From Bolinopsis microptera (taxonomy: Eukaryota; Ctenophora; Tentaculata; Lobata; Bolinopsidae), in NCBI RefSeq assembly GCF_026151205.1, contig NC_087080.1, positions 5,436,797 through 5,500,796 of the forward strand: 64,000 nucleotides of DNA. The letters are read 5' to 3'. Both the position numbers and the translations under genes were made by a program. Position 1 is the stretch's first letter. Each line of letters begins with the position of its first letter. Shown in pieces: positions 26,243-64,000 of this stretch. The notes below the pieces were generated by a model that ran no database searches, was not told where the DNA came from, and saw only the letters and a program-made list of their open reading frames with translations.

Positions 26243-26520
26243 CTTGATTCACGATGTCAATCCTTCCTAGCTCGGCGAGGCCCAGTGGTGCATCTCACCG
26301 ATCTACGGACGAGAATATGGTGGTTGCGAGAATATGCGCGGTGCGGCCAGGTAGTGCATCGCGCTAGAAGAAATGGCCCATTGGTACATCTTGCCGATCT
26401 AACGAAGAGTTTAATCATTACTTGACGATGTCAATTCATCGCAGCTCGGCGCGGCACAGTAGCCAGTAGCGCATTTCGCCGATCTAGCTGTGAGAAGCCT
26501 CATTGAGTGAGCGGCGCGGC
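26243..26520 (+). promoter_or_regulatory. GC-rich repeated 5' leader (monomers) of the LINE
   Basis: CTTGATTCACGATGTCAATC at 26243 and CTTGACGATGTCAATTCATC at 26421 each begin a related unit (CAGCTCGGCG.GGC...CAGTAG/GTGCAT.TC.CCGATCT), about 178 bp apart. A third partial unit (GAGCGGCGCGGCACAGTA) runs into ORF1. Tandem 5' monomers act as promoters in some mammalian LINEs; a promoter role here is inference. A lone copy of the unit lies at 61277-61430. Confidence 0.5.
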
Positions 26521-26628
26521 ACAGTATCCTTGCTTGGGCTTGCTGAAAATGTTTGTGCTGTAGTGAGTGGCAAGAAATGTGACGATGCTAAGTCCCCTTC
26601 CTACTTGTCAGCTCCCTCCAGCATTCTA

Positions 26629-28089
26629 ATGGGTCATACTACCTCAGACGAAAGCTCCATACACAAGTCCTTAGAAGCCATTCAGACGTCCATTAAAAAC
26701 TTGAGAGACAATGATAGCCATCTTAGGACTCTCGACTCCATCAACACAAAGCTCGCTGAACTAAAACTAGACATCAACTGTTTTAAAAACAGTAGATCAT
26801 CAAATGTGTCCACTCCTGACCTTCCCATGCCACCTTTTAACATAGGGTCACCAGCAGCATCTGAGACAGTCAATGAACAGCTCCTTCTGGATGCGCAGAA
26901 GCATGCAAGTGCAGAGGATTCCAAGTCCAAGCACATTGTGTCGTATGTCCCGGACTTCATAGACACAGACTTAAACACTAAGCTGCTGGTTTTCCTTAAT
27001 CAACAGAAGGAAGCCTTTGATGGCAACTCAGAGAATGGCCATGATGTTCTGAGCTTTGGCGAACCGTACGACTACCCTGGAGCTAAAGCTGCAAAGCCCA
27101 AATCAACAGAACTCCCTGAGGTTCTTGCTGAGCTAGCCTCTAAAATAAAAGATCAGCACCCAGGATCAGTGACTAACCAGTGCCTGATAAACCGATACAC
27201 CGACGAGAACAGCTTCCTTCCTAAGCACTCTGATAACGAACAGTCACTGGTCCATGATAGTTCCATCTTTACAGTATCCTTAGGAGGAGAATGCTCTGTC
27301 AAGTTCACAAAAAAAAGTGATCTTGAAGGGGAGATTGTAGAGACAGTAGAGGGATGCAGTCTCTATGTTATGAGCAAACAGTCTCAGTTTCACTGGGACC
27401 ACAGAATTGACAAAAGCACGGAAAAGAGACACCTACGATATAGTATCACCTTCCGATACATAAGCAGTAGCACCAATGCGACACTGATTATTGGTGACTC
27501 CAATACCCGGTACCTCCGATTTGGGTCTGGAAAAGGAACATTTGGACACCGCTTGCCTGGAAGAAGAATAGAATGCTTCACCATAGATAAGCTAGATCCT
27601 ACCCTTTGTGTAGGTTATAAAAACATTATAGTTCATTGTGGAGTAAACAACATCAAGAATGATGGGGGGAATGTTAAATATTGGGCAAATGAGCTGAACA
27701 AAAAGCTCAAGACTATAAGTGAATTGTGCCCTTACGCTAAAATAATTGTTTCACCTATACTGCCAACTAGGTCCTCCTTGCTGAACGAAAGGGCTATGGA
27801 GTTTAACAGGTTTTTATTTGGATACTGTGATACCAATTCTAGAATAGGTACATTAGATTTTAATAGCTTTGTTGACGAAGATGGTCTGCTGAATCAGCAG
27901 TTTTGTAGATATAAGAAGCCGGATGACCCAATTCACCTTGGATCAAACGGTATATTCAAACTCTCCCGGGCTTTTGCTCACAAGATATTTGGTAGCCCTG
28001 TTGACGGGAGATCATTCAGTGATGTTGTTAATGCCAAAGCTAGAGGCAGATTTTCCCCACGACCACGTAGATCTATACTTCAGTCATGA
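26629..28089 (+). CDS. LINE ORF1: coiled coil, AlkB-like 2OG-Fe(II) dioxygenase, SGNH esterase
   Basis: The frame is open from 26503, but the first in-frame ATG is at 26629 (about 486 residues). Numbered from 26503, residues 50-96 look coiled-coil (KSLEAIQTSIKNLRDND). Residues 145-320 form an AlkB-type domain: NRYTDENSFLPKHSDNE with the metal-binding H242-S-D244, a core strand SIFTVSLGGECSVKF, second metal ligand H300 in FHWDHRI, and the 2-oxoglutarate-binding arginine pair R312-x5-R318 in LRYSITFRY. Residues 326-498 form an SGNH hydrolase: GDSN (S333), GVNN (380-383) and DPIH (D475, H478), the full catalytic triad. AlkB enzymes remove methyl groups from nucleic acid bases; SGNH esterases occur in ORF1 of CR1 elements. 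All key residues are present, so both domains may be active. Their role in the element is inference. Confidence 0.85.
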   Translation: MGHTTSDESSIHKSLEAIQTSIKNLRDNDSHLRTLDSINTKLAELKLDINCFKNSRSSNVSTPDLPMPPFNIGSPAASETVNEQLLLDAQKHASAEDSKSKHIVSYVPDFIDTDLNTKLLVFLNQQKEAFDGNSENGHDVLSFGEPYDYPGAKAAKPKSTELPEVLAELASKIKDQHPGSVTNQCLINRYTDENSFLPKHSDNEQSLVHDSSIFTVSLGGECSVKFTKKSDLEGEIVETVEGCSLYVMSKQSQFHWDHRIDKSTEKRHLRYSITFRYISSSTNATLIIGDSNTRYLRFGSGKGTFGHRLPGRRIECFTIDKLDPTLCVGYKNIIVHCGVNNIKNDGGNVKYWANELNKKLKTISELCPYAKIIVSPILPTRSSLLNERAMEFNRFLFGYCDTNSRIGTLDFNSFVDEDGLLNQQFCRYKKPDDPIHLGSNGIFKLSRAFAHKIFGSPVDGRSFSDVVNAKARGRFSPRPRRSILQS

Positions 28090-31000
28090 TAGTTAAATTG
28101 ATATGCGAAATTTGCTGCTGCTGCAATAAACCTGTACGAGCTGGACACCCTTTCATAATTTGTCAGATGTGTGACAAAATAATGCACAAAAAATGCAAAA
28201 CTAATGACAACATAGTCAAATTTCGAGATGAAATATACTGCAAAGTCTGTATTGAAGCCAACGATATTATTCGATACAACCCTTTCTACCAAGCTCCCCA
28301 CTTTGCTAACAACGGCCTTATTGATGATGAGCCAGTTAATTATATTGAATCTATCTACAACAGCTCAAAAATTCTTGAAAACTGCAAAACATTCTCCATA
28401 ACAGAGTTGAATGCCACCACCCTGCCTGGAAATTCAGTCGAATATATGTCCACTTTATTCCTCAACATTGATGGGAATGCAACAAACTTTGACAACTTTG
28501 CAGTTGAGCAGTCTAGTATAAACCACAAGTTTTCTGTTATTGGTCTTGCAGAAGCTCAGTGGATACTCCTCGTGTTACCAATCCCGTTATTTCTGTCAAG
28601 ACAAAAACCAGTTCAAGGCTAAAGGATCAGGAGTTTGTCTTTACCTGAAAAACTCTCTAAACTTTAATAAGATTACTGGATTATCTCTCTGTAATGAGCA
28701 CATAGAATCACTGTTTGTATCTATCACCAATATGAAAGACCCAACCGTTGTAGGGGTTATCTACCGTCCTCCAAACGCATCACTTGAACTGTTTAACGAA
28801 GCATATGAACGTATTCTCTCTAAACTGAATGGCAAGAAGGTATATATCCTTGGGGATTTCAATGTTAACATTTTAAACCACCCATCTTCATCAGAGGACA
28901 AATTCCAAGAAATAATATTTAACAATGGCTTTATACCAACCATATCAGTGCCAACTCACCATATGCCTGGTTGTTCCAGGACTTGTATTGACAATATCCA
29001 CACCAATGTATTAGACCAATCCCTTATCTCTGGTGTCATATCTGACAAGATCTCCCATCACCACCCTATATTCACTTTTGTTAAGCTTTCCCCCGACTCT
29101 GTGTCACTATCTGATTCACCAGACAAAATTACTATACACTACGACTATAGTAATGCTAACCTAGAGAAGCTCTGTCTTGAAATAGAAAACGATTTGGATA
29201 GGTTCCACTACAGTTGTGACACATTTGACTCTTTTATGCAGCTATTTCAAGAAAAAATAGACTTGTCTTGCAAACTTCTAACTCCAAGAACCACTAAACG
29301 TAATAGCATAACCAACCCTTGGATTACCCAGGGCCTAATTAATTCCATCGAGAAGAAAGCTAGATTGTATTTTGAATGGAAAAAGACTTGTACATTAAAA
29401 TTACCTGACGGGGATCCGAATAAGCACATTTGCTACAAGGAATTCGACAAGTTTCTCAAAAGCTCAATAAATATGGCAAAGGCTATGTGCTACACTAGAA
29501 AATTCGAAAAGTACAGCATGAACTCTAAAAAGACGTGGGAAGTTATTAATGAACTCCGTGGTAAAACTATGTCTCGATGTAAGGACGATTTTGTCATAAA
29601 CGGTCAGAGAGTTACCTGCAGACGAATAATTGCTAACAAATTTTGTGAATATTTTACATCTCTTGCAAGTAATCTCAATAAAAATGTACTGTCGAACAAT
29701 AGTATTTCTCTGGAACCAATTGAATCATTTGCTCAGTTCATGTCAAATTCAGTATCTGACTCCATTTATCTGGAAGAAACTAATAAAGACGAGATCATCG
29801 AGGTGATCAAAGATTTTCAAAATGGCAAGGCGAGTGACATACCAATAATTGTTGTAAAGAAATCATCAAAGCTTATAGCTGGTACCTTGGCCAGGCTTTA
29901 CAACACATGTATACAAAGTGGTACATTCCCGACTATTTTTAAAACTGGTAAAGTTATTCCTATTTACAAGAAAGACAATAAGGAATGTATCGAAAACTAT
30001 CGGCCTGTATCAATATTACCTTTATTTGGAAAAATTTTCGAGAAGATCATTTACAAACGGCTCTATAATTTCTTCACATCTAAAGGTGTACTGACCGACT
30101 CACAGTTTGGATTTAGAAAAGGTCATTCCACCACTCATGCTCTACACAAATCTATAGACTCCGTTACAAAGACTCTAGCTGGCAATAAACATGTCTTAGG
30201 AATATTCATTGACTTAAGCAAAGCATTCGACACCCTTGACCACAACATTCTTCTAAGCAAATTAAACTCCTATGGTATTAGGGGCACAGCACTTACCTTA
30301 CTTAAAAGCTATTTGACTAACAGAAAGCAGTATGTTATGTATAACGATGTACCATCAGAAACACTGGATGTGAAATTTGGGGTACCACAGGGGTCAATTC
30401 TAGGGCCGTTACTCTTCCTACTGTATATGAACGATATAGTGAACTGTTTTTCTGACAGTGAGGTGAAATTTGTACTTTATGCTGATGACACTAATATCTT
30501 TATATCGGGACCATCTAGAGAAGCAACATACAAAAAAGCAAACTTAGTTCTTAAACATGTGTCGATTTACATGAAATGTAATCTACTCCATATCAATATG
30601 TCTAAATGTTGCTACATCCATTTTAAACCTGCCTCTGAATATGATGAGACCTGTGCAAGGACCAGACCATTTGCTAACCTGCTAGATGAGTCTAGGTCAA
30701 TATTCATCGATGGTAAGGTTATTACTAAAGTCAAGGATACCAAATTCCTAGGTATTGTTATAGATAGTAAGTTAAACTGGGCTGCCCATATGCACTACAT
30801 TCGTAAAAAACTTCGGTCCATGACTGGTGCAATCTGTAGAATTCGACACTCGATACCTGGTGAACTATATTTGAAAATATATAATGCTCTCTTTGAATCA
30901 CATCTCAGTTATGGTATAAGTGTTTGGGGCGTTGTCCTTAAAGAACGATCAAATGACAGTCTTTTTATCACACAGAAGCACTGTGTAAGGATCCTTTTTG

Positions 31001-31455
31001 GTGATCTCGACTCATATTTAGATAAACAATCAACATGTGCACGTACTAGACCGTATGGTATGCAAAAATTAGACCATAAACACTTTGAAAAGGAGCATAC
31101 AAAACCCATTTTTAATAGACTAAAAATTCTAACGGCTCAAAACTTGTACAAATATCACTGCATTTTAGAATTCTCTAAGATTATCAAGTACCACTGCCCA
31201 TACTCCCTTTATGAGGCCATCAACATTTCAAACCGTGCAACGAGTCTAACTGTTATTCTTCTAAATAAATCAAATACCTTTTTGTTTAATGCAGCCAAGC
31301 TTTGGAACACAGTTCATAAAAAAATTTTAACTTCAAGCAATTGCCTAGAAACTTCCATTAACTTGATAAAATTGAGAACCAAAGCACTATTAGTACAATC
31401 ACAGGCAGCTGACTTAAAAGATACCTGGACTCCAACCAATTTTAAATTGCAGTAA
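28086..31455 (+). pseudogene. LINE ORF2: PHD finger, endonuclease, reverse transcriptase (one frameshift)
   Basis: ATG at 28086 overlaps the TGA of ORF1 by four bases (ATGA). The N-terminus has a C4HC3 PHD-type finger (CCNK...ICQMC...HKKC...YCKVC, about 28107-28254). An APE-type endonuclease follows (FSVIGLAE, VIYRPP, LGDFNVNI, CIDNI, SHHHPIF). The frame shifts near 28550-28560: comparison with other LINE endonucleases suggests a deletion of about a dozen codons between VIGLAE and SGYSS. The rest is open for about 960 codons. RT motifs: IPIYKKDN, NYRPVSILP, FRKGHSTTHAL, IDLSKAFDTLDH, GVPQGSILGP, YADD (30478-30489), KFLGIVID. The C-terminal TCARTRPYG...KEHTKPIF segment is common in CR1/L2-like animal LINEs. 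A single break implies a young copy. Confidence 0.9.
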
Positions 31456-31593
31456 TTAAATTGCACATGCAGCAGCACACACCTAATATTACTATCATGA
31501 TTGAACTATAAGCTGATAAGCTTTCAGATCCATTTTTAACCACTTGATGTAATGTTTTTAATAATTAAATATTTTATTTTACAAATTTATATC

Positions 31594-31655
31594 AGATCGA
31601 ACCTATATTTGATAATCGAACCTATATTCGATAATCAAACCTGTATTCGATAGTT
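31594..31655 (+). repeat. Tandem 3'-end repeats of the AlkB-bearing LINE
   Basis: Three units of about 18-19 bp: GATCGAACCTATATTT, GATAATCGAACCTATATTC, GATAATCAAACCTGTATTC. Short 3' tandem repeats instead of poly(A) are common in CR1-group LINEs. Confidence 0.7.
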
Positions 31656-31740
31656 AAATTTATGCGATAAATTGATATTGATATTATTATTGTTGAATGA
31701 AGTTAACTCCTGAGATAAATTTTATTAATTTTTTAACAAA

Positions 31741-31925
31741 GGGACTTGGAGTATAAACGACCAAGTTCGCATAAATGCCTACCCAACCAAGAATTTAGGA
31801 GGCAAGGGTGGGTGCGTAAACTTTACGGTCTGCACTCTCCGATCCTGTATCACCCTGGATTCTTTTTGACGTATTTTTGTATTAGGTATATACCTTCTAT
31901 CCATTCTCTTGCTACTCCAAGTCCC
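31741..31925. repeat. 185-bp stretch with 13-bp perfect inverted ends
   Basis: GGGACTTGGAGTA (31741-31753) and TACTCCAAGTCCC (31913-31925) are exact inverted repeats. It could be a small MITE or a large hairpin. No clear target duplication is visible at its edges. Confidence 0.5.
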
Positions 31926-31929
31926 CTAA

Positions 31930-33590
31930 GATATCTGGTAAAAAGGTCCTGCTAGTTATATATAAAATATATTTATGTTTGCTTTAATTGATACTAAATA
32001 AAATTGTTGTTTTCTTGAAATTGTTGTTTTCTTGACAGTAACGCACCGCGCTACAAACGAAGTGGTTAGTAAAACAAATTTTTTTTTTAAAGTAAAACAA
32101 ATTTAAATTTTGGTATTTATTAATAACAATCAAAACATATCATATCATAAAAATAAAGCCGCGCGTTGGTTGACTGCCTCAGTATGGTGAATAATTTAAG
32201 CTTGAAGGTGCCCTGCGCATTTACAGAACATTATGTGCGATCACATGATCACGAAGACCTGTGAGCGCCAAATTTAATTTAAACTTTCTAGAAATCGTAC
32301 ATCACTACGAGTTACTCATGCTTTTGAATTATAGGAGTGCGGATAGTCAGGTATTTCATTCATTCATACTTAATCGGTTTAAAGCTGTATATTTAGAACT
32401 CACTATTGTTTGAACTATGAAAGCAGAACGTAAATAATGGACAATATCAAATATACCGACGACAATACCAAAAACCCGAGTGCCGCATTGACTTTTCCGG
32501 ATCCGTTTTTACCGAAGGCTTATCCACAAGTTACTCATGCTGCATGTATAGTCTGATAATATTTTGTTTTATCTCTAGCAAGCATTCTGTAAGTTTGAGT
32601 GTCGTATTTATTATAGAAGAGCCAGCCAACCTCCGCATTACAATCTTTTGTATGCCAGGTTCGTTTATAAAATCTAATCATATAATAAGATTGATCCAAT
32701 AGTCTAAGATGAACGGTATATCTTAGCTCATCGTTATTAAAATCCTAATAGATGAATTAATCAAGTAATGTTCCCTTCCAACACAACTAAACAACAAACA
32801 AATGCTTGCTCACCAGTGGTGACGCAATCGTAGGGGCATGCAGTTGGTTCAGATAACTCTCACCCCGACGACAGCGTCGAGAAATTATCAAATTATGCAT
32901 TTGCGCCATACTGGACACATTTTATATTTAATATTTTGTGGTTTGTAGAAATTAGTGTCATCTAAAGTATAGCTTAACTGGCGAGCAAGCATCGTCCCAC
33001 TCGGCGGGGACGAAAATACCGAGTCCAATCACAGAAAGTTAACCAAAAGATAAAAACAAGAGCTCGGATATCAACAAAAATCACACGCTCCAGACGACGG
33101 GGGAAGAGAGGATAGGAAGTAAGCTGCTGGGCTCAACAAATTTTGATGATTGTAAGCAAATTCGTTCTTGTGCCCTATAATAATTTGGTATTGAGGTATG
33201 ACCCTGTACTGTGCGTGATAGTGAAAATGAAAGTGAATGTGAATCTGTAATTCGAACGAAATGAGTTATGGCCAGACGATTCTTCAATTTCAAAATAATA
33301 AAGTTGTTGCGAGAAACGTCTGCTCTATTCAATGTCCAAAGCCCTTGCGCTTGTGAAACAAGCGCGCCCGCAGTGGCGCGAAAGCACATGGTTAGGTGGA
33401 GAAAAACGTTATTCTATAAGCAGCGCAGCCGAGCCCTGAAGTAAAAATTTTTTTAATTGACATCCTCAATCAATTATTAAACATGGTTGCAGTTGATTGC
33501 AACAATACCATTTTATTGATACATGTTTCGTGTCCCAAATAACCTACTAAAAAGTAAAACAAAATATAAGTAAAATAAAACGTAAATTTT
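31930..33590. other. Unannotated intergenic stretch
   Basis: No gene or known element recognised. It contains a duplicated TTGTTGTTTTCTTGA (about 32005-32036) and several GC-rich islands in A+T-rich sequence (CGCGCCCGCAGTGGCGCG near 33361). Confidence 0.5.
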
Positions 33591-34464: not shown

Positions 34465-37226
34465 ACATAACATAACATAACATTATAAATAATGCCTCTC
34501 TGGGCATCTCAAAAAGAAATTCATAGAAAATGAACACTTTACGTTTGAAACCATATAATTACAAACTTTTTAAAAAATTTAACTAAATACCTTTGATATT
34601 AACCTTCTTCCTCTTAGCTACCAATGGATTATCTTTCATATAACTTACATAACTATTCCTATTAGACACAGACACATCTATCCTATCAAAGATGTCATAT
34701 GAAAGTTCCCAGTGATGACCAAGCTTATTAGCTCGATATCCATGAAGCCGAAAGGCATCTAATCCCCTCTTGAAACCAGTAACTGACTCACTAGCTTTCA
34801 CAAGTGGTGGTAGACTGTTCCAATAGCGCAAGACCCTTTGGGCAAAGAAATCAGTCTCATTTGTGGTGAATCTATGAGTCTTTGATCTAGCAGCAACGGT
34901 CCTACCAGAACGACCAAATAAATCGGAACCATAACCCACAAAGCCTTCCTGGATCTTGAACATCTCAATGAGATCTCCACGAACCCTGCGTTCAAGCAGG
35001 GTTGTGAGGTTCAGCTTATCCAGTCTCTCTCTGTACGTCATGAGTCCCAATCCATCAATCATACGGGTGAACGATCTTTGAACACCTTCCAATTCAAGAA
35101 TCAGTGACCAGTTTCCATGCCTAGCCATTGGAGCCCATGCCTGTGAACAATACTCTATATGAGGCTTTACTAAAGACTTATACAAGCCCAGCATAACGCT
35201 TTTCTCCCTCGATATAATATTTCTTGTAAGCCAGGCAATGGTACTATTAGCTTTAGCAATGCACTTTCTCACATGACCCTCAAAGTTGAAGCTGGTGTTA
35301 AAGACAACTCCAAGGTCCTTCTCGCTTTCAACACATCTCAAAGGCACACCACCAAACAAGTACTGATTCTTAGGATTACAAGAACCAATTTGCATGACCA
35401 TACACTTATCTACATTAAAATTTAAACACCAACGAGACTCCCAAAGTTCTAGCAACTTCAAATCAGCTGTTAGATTAATAAAAGGATTAACAATCATTTT
35501 AACATCATCAGCAAAAAGTTTGATAATAGCTTTGATTCCTTCTGGAAGATCATTTACAAATAAAAGAAAGAGCAATGGTCCCAAAACACTGCCTTGGGGC
35601 ACTCCTGAGAGTATATACTTAATCTCAGAAAATTCATCTCCTACTTTAACTTTCATAGACCTCCCTACTAAAAAGTTTTCTAAAATACCAATTATCTCCT
35701 CAGGAACACCAACATTTCTTAATTTAACTAATAAACGGTGGTGTGGTACGCTATCAAAGGCCTTAGAGAAATCAAAGTATAATATATCAGCACAGCCACC
35801 TTCAGCCAGCAAGTCATTGACAGCGTCAATAGACTCCAGTAGGTTAGATAAGCATGACCGACCCTTCATGAAGCCGTGCTGCGTGCTACTAAGCACCTGT
35901 TCAACACCATCGAGAATATACTCCCTAAGAAGCTTCTCATAGGCTTTGCATAGTATACAAGTCAGTGACACAGGCCTGTAATTATTAGGACTATGTACTG
36001 ACCCCTTTTTGTGCAAGGCCACAACAGTGGCAGTTTTCCATACCTCAGGAATATACTGCTCAGAAGCACAGGCACTAAACAGCAACACAACCGCATCCAC
36101 AAAGGAACTGTTCTCACTTAAATACCTCAGGAGTCTAGGATGAACACCATCAGGACCCATAGCTTTACTAATATCTAGTGATCCCAAAATCTTGGCAACA
36201 CTTTCAGGGTGCACCATAAATTTACTCCAGAAGTAATCATTATTACATTCTGTATAACAATTTTGAGGCAGAGGGCCAAAAGGTTCAGGTTTAAAAACTG
36301 ACTGGAAAAAATCAGCTAACACTTCTGCCGTTTCAGAAGGAGACTTGGTCTCAGAACCATCATCTGTTTTAAGTCTTTCTACAGATTTTCTTAAAACACT
36401 TTTAGATTTAAGGTAATTAAAAAGAGGTTTACAATTTAACTTAAACAATTTAGTCACTTTAGTCTCATATTTGATCTTTGCCTTAATCTCAGCGTTCTGG
36501 TACATCCGCTGCTCGTACTCGGCTGCGTTAAACATCACCATCGTAGGATCCTCGTCAAAATCCTTCCATGCCCGGTCCTTGCACTTTCTTTTCCTAACCA
36601 GACTAGAGCAATCCCAGGGTAACCTCTGTAAGATCTCCCCACCTTTAGTTGTTTTAAGGTGGGTGGTTGGAACACGATCTGAAATGACACTAAGTTTTTG
36701 GTGTAATTCTTCCCACATCTCTTCGACCTGAAGATCTTCTCTAGAGTACCCCCAGCTGATGTCTGATGACTGTGTGTTAACAAAGTCCTGATCCACCTTA
36801 TACCAGCTTTTCTTCTTAGATGTAAGGAACTCGACATTGTTTTTGACTTTCAGCTCGACCAGTAGTGATACATGATCGCTTTTACCGAGAGGAGCAAGGA
36901 TATCAACATTATTTACAAAACAATCATTATTGCAGAAGACCTGATCAAGCAAGGAGCATTGAGTTGTATCACCAACCTTCCTGACACGTGTCGAAGACCC
37001 AGTGACATACCACTTCAAACCTTTCCTGGTAAAGACATTCAAGAATTCTGATTCCATCAGCAACCTTCTGTCACATGAGTTTGGTGGGCGCTCGACTAAA
37101 CTTTTGTCCCAGTTAACATGAGGTAGGTTCACATCGCCAACTATCACCAACTCTTCATCCGCATTAACTGGTAAACGTTCAAGAGCACCTAACAGGCCAG
37201 CATTGTCCTTCATATCAATCATTGCC
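34465..37226 (-). mobile_element. CR1-group LINE, 5'-truncated, with an open RT frame
   Basis: Non-LTR retrotransposon cut inside the endonuclease domain at about 37226. Coding region 34583-37222. The 3' end is marked by an ATGTT-type short tandem tail (CATAACATAACATAACATTA on the plus strand, about 34465-34484), as is usual for CR1-group LINEs. It lies between a short repeat and the Copia-split LINE. Confidence 0.8.
34583..37222 (-). CDS. LINE ORF2 (endonuclease remnant plus full reverse transcriptase)
   Basis: An uninterrupted frame of 879 codons. The N-terminus retains only the later part of an APE-type endonuclease (LVIVGDVNLPHVNW, SLLDQVF, GKSDHVSLL). RT motifs follow in order: ISKAMGPDGVHPRLL, VVALHKKGS, NNYRPVSLTCI, STQHGFMKGRSC, LYFDFSKAFDSVPH, LSGVPQGSVLGPLLF, LFADD (about 35509-35524), ESEKDLGVVFN. 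The C-terminal part (LVKPHIEYCSQAWAP, RVRGDLIEMFKI, FFAQRVLRYWNSLP) is the usual thumb and tail of CR1/Rex-like elements. The Met at 37222 is simply the first in frame after the truncation and not a natural start. Absence of stops indicates recent insertion. Confidence 0.85.
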   Translation of the reverse strand: MIDMKDNAGLLGALERLPVNADEELVIVGDVNLPHVNWDKSLVERPPNSCDRRLLMESEFLNVFTRKGLKWYVTGSSTRVRKVGDTTQCSLLDQVFCNNDCFVNNVDILAPLGKSDHVSLLVELKVKNNVEFLTSKKKSWYKVDQDFVNTQSSDISWGYSREDLQVEEMWEELHQKLSVISDRVPTTHLKTTKGGEILQRLPWDCSSLVRKRKCKDRAWKDFDEDPTMVMFNAAEYEQRMYQNAEIKAKIKYETKVTKLFKLNCKPLFNYLKSKSVLRKSVERLKTDDGSETKSPSETAEVLADFFQSVFKPEPFGPLPQNCYTECNNDYFWSKFMVHPESVAKILGSLDISKAMGPDGVHPRLLRYLSENSSFVDAVVLLFSACASEQYIPEVWKTATVVALHKKGSVHSPNNYRPVSLTCILCKAYEKLLREYILDGVEQVLSSTQHGFMKGRSCLSNLLESIDAVNDLLAEGGCADILYFDFSKAFDSVPHHRLLVKLRNVGVPEEIIGILENFLVGRSMKVKVGDEFSEIKYILSGVPQGSVLGPLLFLLFVNDLPEGIKAIIKLFADDVKMIVNPFINLTADLKLLELWESRWCLNFNVDKCMVMQIGSCNPKNQYLFGGVPLRCVESEKDLGVVFNTSFNFEGHVRKCIAKANSTIAWLTRNIISREKSVMLGLYKSLVKPHIEYCSQAWAPMARHGNWSLILELEGVQRSFTRMIDGLGLMTYRERLDKLNLTTLLERRVRGDLIEMFKIQEGFVGYGSDLFGRSGRTVAARSKTHRFTTNETDFFAQRVLRYWNSLPPLVKASESVTGFKRGLDAFRLHGYRANKLGHHWELSYDIFDRIDVSVSNRNSYVSYMKDNPLVAKRKKVNIKGI

Positions 37227-39565: not shown

Positions 39566-42500
39566 ATCTCCCTAAACTTTCTCTCAAATATTAAAAATGT
39601 TTAAATATTAAAAATCCCTAAAAACAACATACCCAAGTATCAAACTGGGCTACCTTTAAAACACAGATTCTGCCGTGGGTCAATTCAATCAAAACAATAG
39701 AATTATATCAAATAATTCATTCTCATTCATTCACACTTTTTATTTTAAAAGTTCAGTTCTAACTTTCATTATACATTACAGTTTAATAGTTCAATTCCAA
39801 CGTTCATTACACATTACATCAATTACTGAGCTTACAATACAGAGTACTGTCTCAGTTCACTAGGAAGTGTCCCTTTTTCTAACACCTCACGCAACAAAGA
39901 CGAAGATGCACCAGCCTTTGTCAAACAGTCTGCAAGCTGGAGATTTGTTGGAACCCACACATAACGTACTTCATTTTTGTTGAATCGTTGTCTTAGACAA
40001 GCCATGGGAATCCTCAACCCTTTGTCTTCAAGGGTGTTTGTTGTTTTCACAGCATCAAAGAGAGACTTGCAATCCGTTATACAGACTATAGGAACATCTA
40101 TTTTCACAATTTCATTCCACTGCGCTTTAATCAGCTCTGCAGACTCCAGGCCGTCAACTAATGCCCAACTTTCAGCAGCTAATGTGCTCTTACATACTTT
40201 CTTTATCTTTCTACTCTGCCATGTAAGTGGACAGCACTGACCAGATCGGTCAACCATCAATGCCCACCTTGTGAGGATCCATCAGCCAGGTTACCAAAGG
40301 AAGCATCACTGAATACAACCATTGTTGTGTGTTGAAGGTCAAGTGAAGGAAACCTGATTGACAGTGGGTTTTTCTGCATAAACACAATTGTCTTGTTCAC
40401 CAGTTTCAGATCTTTGATCGTTCCCGAAGCATAGGAGTTGGATGCAATGCATGTGCCATACGCAATATCTGGTCGTGACTGTGTTGCTGCCCAGAGCAGC
40501 TGTCCTGCTACTGATCGCAACTGACTTCTTTCTGCCTCATTGATTGGACATGCATTCAGTTTTACTTTGTTCTGGTCGATTTTGATTCTGCTCACTTGAT
40601 TTACATAACCCAGCTGTGATATTTTTATTGCCCTGTAACTTTGACTGAGATCGAGCCCAGTGTACGTAAAGGATGTATCGACTTCCATACTGAGCTTGTA
40701 TTTCATTTTTAAGGCACCAATGACCTCTTTGATGAATATTTCCAGTCCTCCAAACATAAGATCATCAACATGGATCACTATGATCCCACACGGCTTATCA
40801 TTTCTCTGTAAAAAGAAAAATGATTCATCGTACACTGACACTGCTACACCAAGCTCTACTAGGGTATCTCTTAGTTCGACATACCACATTCTTGGACCAT
40901 CAACCAAGCCATGTAGATGCATTTGAGGAGTTTCCACAATTTTCCAGATACCTTAGCTTCATTTGGTGGTTTAATGTATACTGTTCTTGAGATATCTTTT
41001 CCCTGTAGAAAAGCAGCCTGTACATCAATGTGCTGCAGTTTCCAATGCTCTGCTTGCAAAAGAGTAATTGCCAATCTGATTGAGTCCCTACTGCATGTTG
41101 GGGAATCTGATCGTATTGCTTGATTTTTCTCCTGATAGCCTAGAGCAACTAACCGTGCCTTGTACACATTCGTGGTATTCTTTATCTTCTTTGTGATTAC
41201 CCACCTCACACCAATCGTTTTCTGACCTTCATCAGGAACTTCCTCATAGACTTTATTGGTACAAAACTTTTCAAGCTCTGCCTCCTTAGCATCAACAATT
41301 GCTTGTTCACATGAATCTGTAACGCTTGTAAACATAACTTCATGTTCCTGCTCCTCTTCTCTATCTTCGTGCCATTCCTCTGTTAACTCAAACCAGTCGA
41401 CACAATGAGTTTCTTCCTCCCCATCAAGCTGAATGTTCAGGCAGTTTTTGTATTTTCCTCCAGCCTTACCTGCTCTACTAAGGATGTAAGCCTTCTCCCA
41501 GACATCCTCTTCTCCCTCTTCAGGGTACTTGGGTTTGTACATCACAGAAGTTTTCGTCTTAGGCAGGTTTTTATTTCCATTACCATTAACACTGGCTGTG
41601 CTTACAGGAGCACTAGAAGGAGTATCTATTTCATCAGTTATTTGCGCCTGAGCCAATGGCAAACTGTCATTTTCATCCTGATTTCTTTCTTCTGTTCTTG
41701 TCATATTTTTCTCAAAGTCAGATAATTCATCATTGTTCGATTCTGAAGGAGCTTTGACACTGACGGGATCACTTTTGTCCTTCAAATTACCAGTTTCTTC
41801 TAATTCAGGGACATATGTTGGCTTAATGTGACAAGGATGTACCTTGATGATCTGAAATCCATGCTTTACAACAAACGTCTGACCATCCCGACCTATGACA
41901 ACACCTGGTCCATGCCAGGAGTCACTGTTGTTTCTTTTATAGAAAATCTTTTCCCCTGGATCGAGATGAACATCATTACATGTTCTGACCTGGCTTTTCA
42001 AAGCTCTCATGATCTTGGAACTATTCTCTGCTCTTATAAACCCCTCTCTGGCAATCCTCATTGCTCTTAGATGATTCTCTACAGTTTCACTACAGACACT
42101 ACTAATCGATTCCATTGCAGGAAGCTTACTGTCTATCACATTGGGGAAAGATGGATTTCTACCCATAACCAACTGCATGGGTGAATACCCACCCGTCATT
42201 TGTAAAGAGTTTTTAGCACTAAGTGCCCAGCTCAAAGCTGTTTTCCACGAACAATTCGAATCTTGCTTTGTTTTTATCATACTTTCAGCTAGAACTTGAT
42301 GATGGCGTTCAACCATACCATTGCTAAAAGGACTTTCAGCTGCCGATTGTTGTGATTCGATATTGAATCTCTCACACATTTCTACATATTCTGCATTAGA
42401 AAACTCCCCTCCATTATCGGCCATAAAACGGCGGGGAGGCCAGAACTGTGCTATCCACCCAGAACAGATTGCCTCTACAATTGTCTCTTTTCGTTTATTT

Positions 42501-44286
42501 GGAACCAACAATGCAACTGAATATCGTGTAGCACAGTCAATCATGTGCAGAAATGTTACCTCTCCCTGGACCGTTTTCAAGTCCATAGCTACACAATCAT
42601 TAAACACTGTTCCTCGTGGGAGACCAACTACTGGTCTGGGCTTTGGCTTAGAGTATCTTTGACACACTTCACACTTTTGGCATACATCCTCTAGTACCTC
42701 AAGAAATAGTTTAGAGTCAAAACCTGCATTCTTTAGGAGGGTCTTTAGTTTGTACATCGGTGCATGGGCAAACTGTCTGTGAAGTTTAAGTGCCTTTTTC
42801 GCCATAAGCTTTTTGTTGTTCCCACCAAAAGTTTCATCTGTAACTGTGAGAAATACTTTCACACTGGAGTCCACAAGACTCCTCTTTTTGTTACAGATAG
42901 GCACACAATAGTGTCCAGATTTGCACTCCAAAAGGGGTATTTTCTCTCCATTGAACTCGAGAGTATCTTCAAGAAAGTTAAGGATTGCACCAACCTTTTT
43001 TAATGCAGGCTTACTAAGCAGAAGAGGAATATCACATTTGACAACATTTGCCTCAATCAAGATTCTTTTGCTTCCGATTCTTCCAGGAATTTTAATGAGC
43101 TTATTTGACACAACTGACTTACCATCTCCAAACGTGAAAGGTGTCTGGCAGCTAGTTGAAGACATCATGATCTCTCTCTCTCAGCATCATCAAGTGTTTC
43201 TATGTACTGGCTGACCCAATTCTCGCCAACGACAGATTTTGTACAACCTGAATCGATAACTGCACAAGAAAGAGTCTCAAAAACTAGTGAATTCACTTCA
43301 CTGTTTTGCTGGTAAAGCACAGACTCTGGATCAGCCACTGTAGTAAGCAATGTTATGTATGTACGTGACAATGAGTCATCTACTTCCATCTCAGCAGGTT
43401 GACCTTGAACCAAGAAATTTCTCGATGTCCCTTGTTCAGATCTCCAATTTGGGTTTGGTGCTGCTTGATTAGTACACTCTCTTGAGTAGTGACCATTCTT
43501 CCCACAGTTGAAGCAATTGATCTGAGATCTGGGCCTCTTACCTCTCACATACGGATTCCCCTGATTTCTAAGAGTTCCCCTACTCCTCATGGGACCTCCT
43601 CTATCTTGTCCTCTACTCCGTCTGTAACCATGGGAGGTAAAATTACATGACTCTTCTGGTTCAGTCTTGATACAAGACCCCGTCACTTGGTCAAGTCCTG
43701 ATCTGTTCACATGTACAGGAAAAATCTTTGATATCGTTGAGATCATTTCTGCATATGTAAACTCTTTAACCGTTGCCAGTGCAAGATCCACTTTTTCACT
43801 TGACAGATTTGCACTGTTTAGAACTCTATATGCTAGTATTGCATCTGGCAGTTCCATCTTGTGTTTCCTCAGGTCTTCATACAACTTAGCGAATTCAGAA
43901 ATAAATGCCTGAAGATTCATACCCTCTTGACGTTCAAACTTTTCAAATCGACAATATGCCCGATATGCCATGTGAGATGAGTCCTCCTGGTATATACTGT
44001 CCAGGCGTTTTATAACTTTGTCCAACCCGTCATCAGCAGTTAAGACGTCTATTCCTAACGATCTCACATGGTTCTTCACCGGTCCCTCAGACAATTCCAA
44101 AAGGAATGCAGTTGCCCGACGCTTCTTTTCGTAGGATGTGAAAGTATTCCATAGGTCAATATCCAACCGCCAGTCTTCATAATTCTGACCTTCCTTGTAT
44201 GCCGGTGGGGCCTTTTGTGGTCCAACAGCTTTCCTTTCTACCACCTTATCTTCACCTGTCATTTTTGAACCGCTGCCTGCTACCAA

Positions 44287-44469
44287 TGTTAAATCAGAGA
44301 AGCAATGACACACGTTGATAAGTCAGGAAAGAAGTCAATAGATATACAAAGACCCCACGGCTAACAGAGACATCATATATATAACATACTCCTGAAATAT
44401 AGGGAGTTAACTCACATTCAAATATAGATACAAACATATAAAATATAATAGGAGAATATCAAGTTCACA
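44287..44469 (-). repeat. Copia LTR, right copy (5' LTR in element sense)
   Basis: 183 bp with the same TG...CA ends; followed by ACTAT, the target duplication. The primer-binding site lies immediately to its left. Confidence 0.93.
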
Positions 44470-46905: not shown

Positions 46906-48348
46906 ATGGAAAATCCCCAGTCCAAATACCGGAGTCCTCTCACCGACCGCTATGCTTCCGATGAGATGAGCTTTGTCTTTTCAGATCAAAATAAATTTCA
47001 AACCTGGAGGAAACTTTGGACCATACTAGCTGAAGCAGAGCAGGAGCTAGGCCTGCAGATAACGGACGAGCAGATCCTTGAGATGAGGAACAATTTAACC
47101 AACATAGATTTTAAAAGAGCTGCTGAGGAGGAGAAAGCCAGGAGACACGATGTAATGGCACACGTTCACACTTTTGGTGCAGCTGCTCCAAAAGCAGCTC
47201 CTATCATTCATTTAGGTGCTACGAGCTGCTTTGTCGGAGACAACACTGATCTTTTGGTTATGAGAGAGGGATTGAAAATACTGAGTAGAAAGCTTGCTCA
47301 ATGCTGTGATTCTCTGGCCCAGTTTGCACACCAATATAAGAGCATGCCCCAACTTGGCTACACTCATTTTCAACCAGCTCAATTGACAACTGTAGGGAAA
47401 AGAGCGTGTCTCTGGTTGCAGGACATGTTGATTGACTTGAAACAATTACAGTTGACCGAGCAAGGAATGCGGTTTAGGGGTGTAAAGGGGACCACTGGTA
47501 CTCAAGCTAGTTTTCTGGAGTTGTTCAGTGGTGATCACGACAAAGTGGAGGAGCTTGATCGGTTAGTCACTGAAAAGTCTGGGTTTACATCAAAGTTCAC
47601 CATCACAGGTCAAACTTACACCAGAAAGATAGATTCTATTATTATCAATGCTGTTGCTGGTATCGGTTCTACTGTTAATAAATTTTGCACTGATCTGAGA
47701 CTGTTAGCCAGCCTGAAGGAGCTAGAGGAGCCGTTTGGAGCAAAGCAGATAGGAAGCAGTGCAATGCCTTACAAACGGAATCCAATGAGATCAGAGAGGT
47801 GCTGCTCGCTTGCACGCCATCTGGTCAGTCTTGTTGCTTCTCCCTTGCATACCCATGCTAACCAGTGGTTTGAACGTACACTGGATGACTCTGCAAACAG
47901 AAGAATAGTTTTAGCTGAAGCGTTTCTCACAGCGGATATCTTACTGAACACTGCTCAAAACATCATGGAAGGTATAGTTGTGTACCCTAAGGTTATAGAA
48001 AAACACATTCTGGAAGAGCTTCCCTTTATGGCTACAGAAAACCTGTTAATGGGGATGGTGAAGGCTGGGGCTGATCGACAGGAGTGTCATGAGAAATTGA
48101 GAATTCTTTCTATTGAGGCTGGGAAACAGGTTAAAGAACTGGGTAACAGTAATGATATGTTGGATAGAATCAGAGATGATGTGTATTTCGCTCCAATTCA
48201 TGAGCTTTTGTTGGATATCGTTAAACCTTCTAATTTTATTGGCAGAGCTCCTCAGCAAGTCGAGAAGTTCATTAAAGAAGAAGTTTTACCGGAAATTGAA
48301 AGTTATAGACTATCCTTTAATAAAGAGGCTCCTAAATTAAACGTGTAA
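46906..48348 (+). CDS. ADSL: Adenylosuccinate lyase, intronless and intact
   Basis: 480-residue cytosolic enzyme of purine synthesis. It cleaves SAICAR to AICAR plus fumarate, and adenylosuccinate to AMP plus fumarate; the active form is a homotetramer. The length equals animal ADSL (about 480-490). Family landmarks: [46 protein letters not shown] with the conserved H154, and the fumarase/aspartase superfamily signature [15 protein letters not shown] with S284/S285 in the mobile loop; also [14 protein letters not shown]. The start ATG (CCAGCTATGG) gives the expected N-terminus [10 protein letters not shown]. There is no intron in the coding region, unlike the many-exon vertebrate gene; no poly(A) tract or target duplication was seen that would prove a retrocopy. 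The FUBP-like gene begins 525 bp downstream on the same strand. Confidence 0.96.
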
Positions 48349-61484: not shown

Positions 61485-64000
61485 GGAAACCCCCTCGGCT
61501 TACTTACTTGGGTTACTTGGGTTGGGTTCCGAGCTAGAGTGCTACCAGGCCAAGAATGTCTTGCATCTCCACCGCCATGTAGTAGCGTGTCAGAGACACG
61601 TGCCACCGGCCCACTCCAGCATTGAGTTCCTGTTCTGTCCAGTGTACCCAGGTGTTGGTGGAGTGTCAGGGAATTCATTGAGGAAAGCATCAAGAGCGGG
61701 TTTGAAAGTGGTCAAGGTCAGGAGGGACTTGATGGCGGGAGGGACCACGTTGTACAGTGCAGAGGCTCTAGAGGCAAAGGAGTTGAACCTCAGGTTATTG
61801 ACACTTGTGTACTTGGAGGACCCTAGTGGTCGTATACACGTAGTTCCGTATCGTGAGGTCTCGCGGAAGTTGATGTTCATGCTGTTTGGAGCGGTTCAAG
61901 TCCGGTAGTTTGCCGTGTTGTAGAAGCTGGAACTTTTCCTTGTTAAGCTCCATGTTGTTAGCATCAGCCCAATTCACAACCGAGAGAAGATCTTCTTGGA
62001 GAAGGATGCGATCGATATGGGAAGATATATCTTTGTGGAGCTTCGAGTCATCTGCAAACACTTTGATCTTGCTGTGCTTGACTACGGAGAAGATGTCGTC
62101 AATGTAGATGAGGAAGAGAAGGGGACCTAGGACAGTACCCTGAGGAACCCCACTGATGACGTCGATGATCGTGGACATGACCCCATCCACGATAACATGC
62201 TGCTTTCTGCCAGTAAGAAAGCTGGCTATCCAGTCGTAGAGCTTACCACGGATACCAAAGGCCTGAATCTTCTTGAGGAGTATCTTGTGGTCAACCTTAT
62301 CAAAGGCTTTGCTGAAGTCGAGGTAGAGCACGTCAGCATTTTTGTCGAGGTTGAGATCGCAGATTATATCCGCGATGTGATGGAGAAGCTGGGTGAGGCA
62401 GTTCTTGCCTTTTTGGAAACCGTGCTGATCAGGGTTGAACATATTGTTGCGTTCAAGGAAGCTGACCATCTGGTTGCGCATGATGCGTTCATTAACGGGT
62501 GATACTCGTAAAATATCTGTTCCATATATATTCCAGGACCGTCGACGAGTCCAACTCGGCGCGCGTCCTGGTAGGTTGTAAACCTACAATGCGTTCACAG
62601 AGTTTGATGAGGTGAGAAGTCAGTGAAACCGGCCTGTAGTTAGCGGCTACAGCCTTGCTCCCCTTCTTGAAGATAGGGATGATACTCTGGGAGCGGAACA
62701 TCTCAGCGATGTCCGAAGTATCAAAAGATAGCTGCCAGAGCGTGGCTATAGTGGGAGCTAGAGCGTCCTTGCATTCCTGCAAGATGAGAGCAGGGAACTT
62801 GTCTGGTCCTGGAGCGGAGAACCTCCCTGTTTCCTTGATAGCACTAAGGACGTCGTCAACCGAGAAGGTGATGTCGGAGAGTTCTTCTGTATGCCCTTTT
62901 TCGTCAGGGGTGTTATCGGGGTTGACGTTTTCAGGGTTACTGAAGGCTTTCTGGTACTGCTTCTGGAGGATGTTGCCCATAACAGTGGGATCGCACTGCA
63001 GGTTGTTAGCATCATCGGCGAGAGGTCCAACAGGCGCCTTGAACTTAGCCGATTTCTTAGCGTAAGAATAAAACGCCTTGGGATTGATCTTCATCTTAGC
63101 TAGCGCAGCAATTTCCTGTCGGAGCCGTTCTTGTTTGATGTCTTCCTTCATAAGAATTTCGATGTTAGCACGTTCGTTGTTGAGGTTATCGAGTTTAGTG
63201 CTGTTCCGTGGAGTTCTAACACCATGCTTTATAGCATTGATCCTGGCATTAAGGCGGCGCTTCTTACGAATAAGTTCCCTTCTGGGCTTGGGAATGGAGG
63301 ATTGTGAGGACAATTGGATGTTAGTGCTGTGCGAGGGAGCGTGCTTAGAGCATATGAACGCTACCTTGTCTTCAAACAATGTCCAAGCTGTATCCTGATC
63401 GTTGCTTGGGTCAGTGATAGAAGCCCAGTCTACTTCTAGCAGTTCTGCATTAATAGCATCCCAGTCTGCAGAGTTTAAGTTAATGTCATCAAGGAGGCAG
63501 GAGGGGGTGAAGACTGGCCGTTCCTGAGTCTGCGAGGGGAGGAGGAGTTCAGGATTGAGGAGAGTGCAGCTCACAATGTCATGATCTGATAACTCTGTCT
63601 TGGTAACAGAGATACTATGGATCGAGTCAGAGTCGTTTGAGAAAACGAGATCTAAGATGTTGCTCTTGCGAGTTGGCTCGAAGACCTCTTGTTGGAGCAG
63701 GCATTCTTCATTGAAGTTCAGAAGTGCTAGGGCTGATTGACGGTCTGAAAGGGAGATACTGCATCCTGTGTCGATAGAAGAATTCGTCCAGTTGATGAAG
63801 GGTAGGTTGAAATCTCCTGTAATGTGCAGTACAGGGGTGCGTTGAATTCCGTTGATGAACTGTTGGAGGGTAGAGAGGCATTCATCAAACTTGTCAAAAG
63901 GAGCTGAAGGGGGCCGGTAAATGCCCGCTATCACGATGTTAGCTTCTTTACTGTAGATGGCGACGAGTTCACAGTATGCAGTAGGAGTTTGAGAAGGACT
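61485..64000 (-). mobile_element. CR1-clade LINE, damaged, continues beyond right edge
   Basis: Minus-strand ORF2. From the edge: endonuclease end (VIAGIYRPP, ITGDFNLPFINW, ILDLVFSND, LSDHDIVSC), then RT (SAPGPDKFPALIL, IPIFKKGSK, NYRPVSLTSHLIKLCERI), an insertion of a 98-bp element at 62492-62589, then HGFQKGKNCLTQLL, VLYLDFSKAFDKVDH, SGVPQGTVLGPLLF and FADDSKLHKD. After the segment FQLLQHGKLPDL a large internal deletion (roughly 600 bp compared with other CR1 elements) and a frame change join it to the C-terminal end (RFNSFASRASALYNVVPP, TFKPALDAFLNEFPDTPP). The 3' end has ACTTGGGTT-type short repeats near 61500-61527. Confidence 0.88.
62492..62589. mobile_element. ~98-bp short mobile element, copy 2, 8-bp target duplication
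   Basis: Inserted in the RT region of the CR1 LINE. Flanked by TGCGTTCA at 62484-62491 and 62590-62597 (9 bp if the preceding A is counted). Ends as in copy 1. Contains CCAGGAC...GTCCTGG, a 7-bp stem, and the terminal hairpin GTAGGTT-GTA-AACCTAC. Confidence 0.88.

Follow-up and report, generated by a model that had tools for sequence, protein, structure and literature searches.

The locus examined here raises the question of whether a mobile element of the ctenophore Bolinopsis microptera carries two enzymes fused in the protein encoded ahead of its reverse transcriptase (RT) and, if so, what such a pair would do for the element. The original prediction, made for a 64,000-nucleotide stretch of contig NC_087080.1 (the window, in whose positions all coordinates below are given unless stated otherwise), was that a reading frame at 26629-28089 unites an AlkB-type nucleic-acid demethylase with an SGNH esterase in the ORF1 place of a CR1-group LINE.

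In six-frame translation of the window, the open AlkB-SGNH reading frame spans 26494-28089 on the forward strand, within an element that is organized as follows:

26525-32034 (+): LINE insertion, 5'-truncated, carrying the AlkB-SGNH ORF1; 97.7-99.1% identical to its six nearest copies (L009-L014) over the shared parts
26521-26526 (+): left copy of the target-site duplication ACAGTA, read at the element end; the final two bases also belong to the stretch homologous to other copies
26527-28089 (+): ORF1 remnant, with about 135 N-terminal codons fewer than longer copies
28086-28089 (+): ATGA, the first ATG of the ORF2 frame overlapping the ORF1 stop codon, from the junction sequence
28086-28622 (+): 5' part of ORF2 with a PHD-like Zn finger (13.9 bits, cut-off 24) and the start of the frame, interrupted in the window copy
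28540-31455 (+): ORF2 frame with endonuclease (EN) and RT by Pfam; RVT_1 at 29968-30759
32001-32034 (+): 3' tail of two tandem 17-bp units, AAATTGTTGTTTTCTTG, at the element end
32035-32040 (+): right copy of the target-site duplication ACAGTA, read at the element end

The element is a 5'-truncated LINE insertion, recognizable as a LINE by its EN-RT ORF2, its 5' truncation, a 6-bp target duplication (ACAGTA on both sides) and a repeated 3' tail, of which two similar units are present in all six other printed copies. The printed copies, seven including that of the window, differ from one another in their flanks. The number of missing ORF1 codons takes as its starting point the first ATG in the nearest longer relatives and, since the window copy is truncated inside ORF1, the ATG at 26629 is an internal one. 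Thus, the predicted interval does encode the AlkB-SGNH fusion, in the ORF1 place and with an EN-RT ORF2 adjoining it, but it is not a complete ORF1, and the ORF2 that follows is interrupted as well. The N-terminal region that precedes AlkB looks coiled-coil-like by eye. In CR1/L2-type LINEs, PHD fingers occur and the 3' tail consists of short repeats, and Kapitonov and Jurka are said to have described an esterase and PHD in CR1-like elements in 2003; the CR1/L2-group label of the window LINE is a provisional one, taken from its anatomy and from such features of the group.

The overlap of the ORF2 start with the ORF1 stop codon (offset -1, ATGA) recurs in 15 of the 24 copies with a printed junction, from 25 that were requested, while the first ATG of ORF2 lies at -4 in two, at +8 in two, at +16 in four and at -29 in one. 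The ORF2 frame of the window copy is broken near 28540-28622, and Pfam finds no PHD match at E 0.1 in the ORF2 of one longer copy. Downstream, RVT_1 is matched at E 2.2e-36 and Exo_endo_phos_2 at E 7.4e-4, the latter under its cut-off. The window also holds two other LINE EN/RT stretches, at 34583-37222 (-) and 61795-64000 (-), with RTs 29% and 39% (153 residues) identical to that of the AlkB LINE; Copia-type LTR pieces with gag, CCHC, integrase and RVT_2 at 39832-44313 (-), of which 40874-44313 was covered by the scan; and, at 46906-48348 (+), an adenylosuccinate lyase encoded by a single unbroken frame of 480 aa, which may represent a gene without introns or a retro-copy.

The two enzymatic domains of ORF1 and their diagnostic residues, numbered in the window rows of alignments A1 (AlkB) and A3 (SGNH), are placed as follows:

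26905-27465 (+): AlkB-type 2OG-Fe(II) dioxygenase domain, Pfam core 27061-27456, from PF13532, phmmer against the PDB and alignment A1
27226-27234 (+): HxD iron ligands, H108 and D110
27400-27402 (+): distal iron-ligand histidine, H166
27436-27456 (+): R-x5-R, R178 and R184
27457-27996 (+): SGNH/GDSL hydrolase domain, from PF13472 (below cut-off) and the motif columns of A3

The profile search recommended with the original prediction bears out the AlkB assignment, as PF13532 matches residues 145-276 of the window ORF1 protein (P0001) at E 2.9e-17 and 64 bits, against a curated cut-off of 31.2, and phmmer of the same protein against the PDB retrieves ALKBH3 (4.6e-7) and ALKBH2 (6.6e-5). Alignment A1 comprises 16 AlkB rows from transposable elements, namely the window row and 15 others that are 21-81% identical to it. 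The mean column identity is 38%, the divergence lying outside the core motifs, and the predicted active-site residues, i.e., HxD, the distal histidine and R-x5-R, are invariant in all 16 rows. A stricter pattern, in which N-x-Y precedes these motifs, is present in 36 of 38 transposon frames, including that of the window, and in 3/3 host-like frames; in both exceptions, the LINE copies L027 and L028 from a single family, the Tyr of N-x-Y is replaced by Phe, with the iron ligands and R-x5-R kept. A single-sequence AlphaFold model of the window AlkB has a pLDDT of 31.5. For the esterase, PF13472 scores the window protein at E 0.0012 and 19.8 bits, below its cut-off of 32.9, and relatives L053 (47.4 bits) and L055 (39.6 bits) exceed the SGNH cut-off. 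In alignment A3, D14-S15-N16, G62-x-N64 and D157-x-x-H160 are invariant in all 11 rows, that of the window among them; the nucleophilic serine (S15), the G-x-N block (G62/N64) and the Asp-x-x-His element (D157/H160) are all present. At E < 0.1, the AlkB and SGNH profiles, both of which include the window's own row, each match only the ORF1 frame among the 1096 window frames of at least 30 aa in six-frame translation.

The fusion is not peculiar to this copy. A search of the 265-Mb genome with the window protein yielded at least 88 scored matches among 954 candidates, with E from 0 to 5.6e-58 and identity from 100% to 36%; several of the 88 contain internal stops. All 20 loci that were fetched, having been selected for matching the query, encode AlkB and then SGNH in one frame, with PHD- and EN-matching frames beside it, and in 18 of them the sequence retrieved also includes the RT; an ORF1 frame of at least 675 aa and a complete ORF2 frame are both open in eight. 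An RT search gave at least 125 scored matches among 6256 candidates, arranged in families of about 95-97%, 70% and 56% identity, and the single place opened among those at 56% (L031) has an AlkB-SGNH ORF1 behind a PHD-like finger.

Selection was estimated as NG86 dN/dS in 16 pairs, which are mutually non-independent. For AlkB, the ratio is 0.04-0.28 in the 12 pairs with an AlkB dS of 0.06-3.2 (several of these dS values exceed 1 and are hence rough), 11 of them lying at 0.04-0.20 and L044/L048 at 0.28. Among the other pairs, L025/L026, which are about 1% diverged, give 0.56, two are saturated and one has no synonymous change. The stretch after AlkB, which is SGNH in LINEs, gives 0.08-0.26 in 11 unsaturated pairs with dS of at least 0.04, and the N-terminal part gives 0.10-0.54. 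The expectation that other copies would carry the fusion under purifying selection is thereby borne out, across many copies and several families. The original prediction had itself named two outcomes that would speak against it, namely the lack of any AlkB profile match and a fusion confined to one copy; neither was found. In L015 compared with L017, dS is 0.25 for SGNH and 1.6 for AlkB, and these differing values indicate that the domains of the window's group have separate histories, as in module exchange. Furthermore, the synonymous divergence of the N-terminal, AlkB and SGNH parts differs among subfamilies (L015, L017 and L019 against L009), which suggests module exchange; reticulate evolution of ORF1 is the subject of PMC4120745, as far as its accessible text goes.

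Searching the genome with PF13532 produced 587 first-look candidates and at least 151 matches, every listed one above the cut-off; these counts are lower bounds, as the window's own 64-bit family is absent among the matches listed. Twenty of the 151 were opened. Three are host-gene-like, with a frame that ends directly after AlkB, one resembling ALKBH2 (L032) and two ALKBH3 (L033, L034), of which the Pfam scan covered L032 and L033. In nine others, which are LINE-like, AlkB precedes SGNH in the frame, and the SGNH was identified by Pfam in L035, L039 and L052 and by motifs in L043, L044 and L046-L049; ORF2 sequence adjoins L035, L043, L046, L047 and L049, while L039, L044, L048 and L052 were placed as LINE-like by similarity only. 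The 646-aa frame of L035 is followed by an EN-RT frame, and over 314 residues this RT shares 37% identity with that of the window element. In L037 (777 aa) and L038 (at least 740 aa), AlkB comes first, followed by a helical-looking stretch and an end that is SGNH-like by motif alone; Pfam finds no SGNH match in L037 at E 0.1.

A further set of frames had been read as LINE ORF1s that contain SGNH only (62 SGNH frames, which fall into nine length classes from 455 to 523 aa). This reading was withdrawn, as all three sampled frames (L053-L055) carry an AlkB-like stretch, for which a profile of relatives scores 3e-22, 3e-19 and 4e-17, respectively (E-values for a database of 24,736 sequences), whereas none of 900 shuffles did better than 22. 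L053, a 478-aa frame, is likewise followed by an EN-RT frame. PF13532 gives no match at E 0.1 in L053 or L055; L053 shows a weak match to PF03171, another 2OG-Fe(II) family (E 0.0044), and L055 none. A scored AlkB match lies within 3 kb in at least one of the 62 frames, which is a lower bound. Other esterase LINEs may likewise hide AlkBs that PF13532 misses, and these cases warn that a curated profile can overlook diverged transposon AlkBs.

The same enzyme pair occurs in Helitrons. Six of the 20 opened PF13532 matches are of Helitron type, with Helitron_like_N downstream in L029 and L040-L042, and with L036 and L045 placed by similarity only. The adjoining stretches L029 and L030 form one frame that contains SGNH (27 bits, below cut-off), AlkB (76.5 bits), DUF6570, Helitron_like_N (PF14214, 1e-7 and 2.4e-10) and a PIF1 helicase (2.1e-22), i.e., the Rep and PIF1-type helicase in one frame by which a Helitron is recognized. 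The assignment is by these coding features; Helitrons also have TC...CTRR ends, a hairpin and an AT target. At six places, an AlkB and a Helitron_like_N hit agree in contig, strand and frame length (frames of 3388, 3366, 3321, 3226, 2459 and 2225 aa), and at two more they lie within 9 kb of each other. Of the 41 Helitron rows, 9 take part in such a pairing, whereas 500 random placements paired 0.2 on average and never more than 3; on the AlkB side, 8 rows out of 150 are involved. AlkB is thus a feature of a minority of Helitron hits in this genome. An upstream SGNH, at 1.25-1.8 kb from the Helitron AlkB, is present at no fewer than eight places and shares its frame at no fewer than six, both being lower bounds, so that the domain order is SGNH before AlkB in Helitrons versus AlkB before SGNH in LINEs. 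One Helitron pair has an AlkB dN/dS of 0.14. The giant AlkB Helitron frames, of 2225-3388 aa, were located at L029:2883-8999 with L030 and, in the genome assembly (G000), at C12:2.47M, C12:8.33M, C3:14.44M, C9:15.87M and C9:11.09M; in them, AlkB, with SGNH where seen, stands ahead of Rep with proline/alanine-rich spacers, and the PIF1 helicase is found in L030.

Compared with the PDB, the A1 profile ranks ALKBH3 (9e-26) and ALKBH2 (1e-20) highest, followed by ALKBH8 (2e-14), E. coli AlkB (2e-10), an N6-methyladenine DNA demethylase (9e-7) and then ALKBH6, ALKBH1 and ALKBH5 (0.004). The transposon AlkBs therefore resemble ALKBH3 and ALKBH2 more closely than the m6A enzyme ALKBH5 in their sequences, an affinity that does not fix the substrate. 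In a 24-row tree, which is unrooted, has weak deep forks and a long L037 branch, and leaves out other ALKBH families, a branch with 97/95 support divides 19 of the transposon rows from the L037 type, which lies on the side of one bacterial and three host AlkBs, and all 20 transposon rows together are set apart at only 90/83. This topology suggests one transposon-resident AlkB lineage, plus perhaps a second capture represented by L037. A grouping of the Helitron AlkBs with the main LINE AlkBs appeared in a first tree with two mis-trimmed rows and disappeared in a second with more rows, and it was set aside; a constraint holding the two together is not rejected (p-AU 0.17). Among viral contigs, patterns from P0001 matched nothing, and 67 stretches that matched A2 patterns all failed in tblastn. 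Prokaryote genomes contributed one relative among 34 stretches, a gammaproteobacterial AlkB (L051, 34% identity), in whose frames no transposon or SGNH reading was seen.

In humans, m1A and m3C in single-stranded DNA and RNA are substrates of ALKBH3. ORF1 encodes a two-enzyme protein whose ALKBH2/3-type AlkB, joined to SGNH, would by analogy repair lesions of the m1A/m3C type on single-stranded element RNA or DNA, a reading to which we give just short of an even chance. Once translated, the ORF1 protein would bind the RNA of its own element or newly made single-stranded DNA, and the AlkB domain, with Fe(II), 2-oxoglutarate and O2, would strip methyl groups (m1A, m3C type) from the base-pairing face, where they would be a block to reverse transcription or to the synthesis of the second strand. 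In a separate step, the SGNH domain might act on lipid or acylated targets, similar to the proposal for the esterase of ZfL2-1. It had been suggested at the outset that the enzyme keeps LINE RNA a good template for reverse transcription; this idea fits the ALKBH2/3-type affinity, but template upkeep would not be the whole story if applied to Helitrons, because they move without an RNA template. In Helitrons, AlkB and SGNH would act on single-stranded DNA intermediates, and single-stranded element nucleic acid as the common target would explain the enzyme pair in RNA-class and DNA-class elements alike. Lesion repair does not account for the SGNH partner or for the PHD-like fingers, and the Phe of L027 and L028 as well as the m6A demethylation assayed for the orchid retroelement AlkB also count against it.

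Several alternatives have to be weighed against lesion repair. That the fusion is spurious, a misread frame or the one-copy capture of a host gene could be argued from the truncation of the window copy and its broken ORF2 frame, yet the many insertions, with differing flanks in the seven printed, the several families and a dN/dS well below 1 refute it; a single-copy accident is accordingly rejected, and the chance of any such artefact is negligible. The AlkB fold could instead be mainly a nucleic-acid-binding, gag-like part of the ORF1 protein to which catalysis is secondary. LINE ORF1 proteins are generally RNA-binding, and the divergence of A1 outside its core motifs also speaks for this; nevertheless, the retention of the iron ligands and R-x5-R in every A1 row, down to 21% identity to the window, makes this quite improbable.

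Another possibility concerns host-made marks, whose removal was also part of the original prediction. Erasure of m6A on element RNA, an epitranscriptomic counter-defence of the kind proposed for orchid Gypsy elements, is unlikely, with the A1 profile far from ALKBH5 (0.004 versus 9e-26 for ALKBH3) and with Helitrons using no RNA template. The available text of PMC9289625 does report that the orchid AlkB binds RNA and demethylates m6A in vitro, whereas that of PMC7873242 reports suppression of human L1 by ALKBH5, with a roughly fourfold reduction of mobility upon its overexpression; the m6A version of the original idea is thus disfavoured. Somewhat less unlikely, although still improbable, is an action on chromosomal DNA marks or by-products (e.g., DNMT-made 3mC or N6-methyladenine), whereby new copies would be shielded from silencing or damage and PHD-like fingers would aim the protein at chromatin. 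Kinship to the DNA-acting ALKBH2 is consistent with it, as are the weak PHD-like fingers in ORF1 or ORF2, a CpG observed/expected ratio of 0.68 for the window as a whole and 0.52 for the element, the excess of TpG and, according to the accessible part of PMC9246332, the co-evolution of ALKB2 with DNMT1/3, whose 3mC by-product it repairs. However, a genome search with PF00145, which split exons could escape, recovers nothing besides a DNMT2-type gene but a single piece of 36 aa, and so gives no evidence of DNMT1/3, and the PHD scores lie under their cut-offs, down to the absence of any match at E 0.1 in the longer copy's ORF2 mentioned above. The DNMT2-type gene (L057, G000:C7:14533204-14534352) occupies a single frame and is the only strong C5-methyltransferase hit of that search.

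Lesion repair on single-stranded element nucleic acid, the preferred reading, can be set beside known systems. Plant RNA viruses carry AlkB domains, which are likewise AlkBs in a selfish RNA replicon, the difference being that theirs reside in a virus polyprotein. The closest precedent is the Ty3/Gypsy retroelements of the orchid Phalaenopsis, which also carry an AlkB dioxygenase; in the portion of PMC9289625 available, they differ in being LTR elements with AlkB at the end of a separate ORF2, with no SGNH seen and with an assayed activity of m6A demethylation. Zebrafish ZfL2-1 and the CR1-L2 esterase LINEs share with the window LINE an ORF1 with an SGNH hydrolase, and the ZfL2-1 esterase shows lipid binding and low turnover (PMC3905857, accessible part); the window LINE differs from such ORF1s in the AlkB fused directly before SGNH. 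The fish texim genes associate an SGNH hydrolase with Helitrons, as observed here, and their relation to the CR1 esterase has been noted; in the accessible text of PMC4021074, they are separate intron-bearing genes in which no AlkB is seen, whereas here SGNH and AlkB lie inside the Helitron Rep-helicase frame. No words starting with AlkB, 2OG or oxygenase occur in the available text of PMC4120745 (an ORF1 survey), PMC3905857 and PMC5408684, a search that "dioxygenase" would escape, and no report of AlkB in a LINE or Helitron was recognized in the accessible part of the open-access literature. Given the orchid Gypsy precedent and the esterase LINEs already described, the present finding extends known kinds.

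Beyond the single locus, AlkB plus SGNH may be a long-standing transposon-resident module, present in several LINE groups and a Helitron lineage in both orders, swapped between subfamilies and including some AlkBs beyond the reach of PF13532, so that the esterase ORF1s of other animals may hide AlkBs and mobile elements may depend on the repair of methylated single-stranded nucleic acid; we advance this broader view tentatively, at somewhat less than even probability. If it is true, demethylation or alkylation repair would equip a large set of LINEs and some Helitrons rather than being an oddity of orchid Gypsy elements, and esterase-type LINE ORF1 proteins would have a concrete role besides RNA binding. 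The protection of single-stranded element nucleic acid would then be a shared reason for the enzyme pair in RNA-class and DNA-class transposons.
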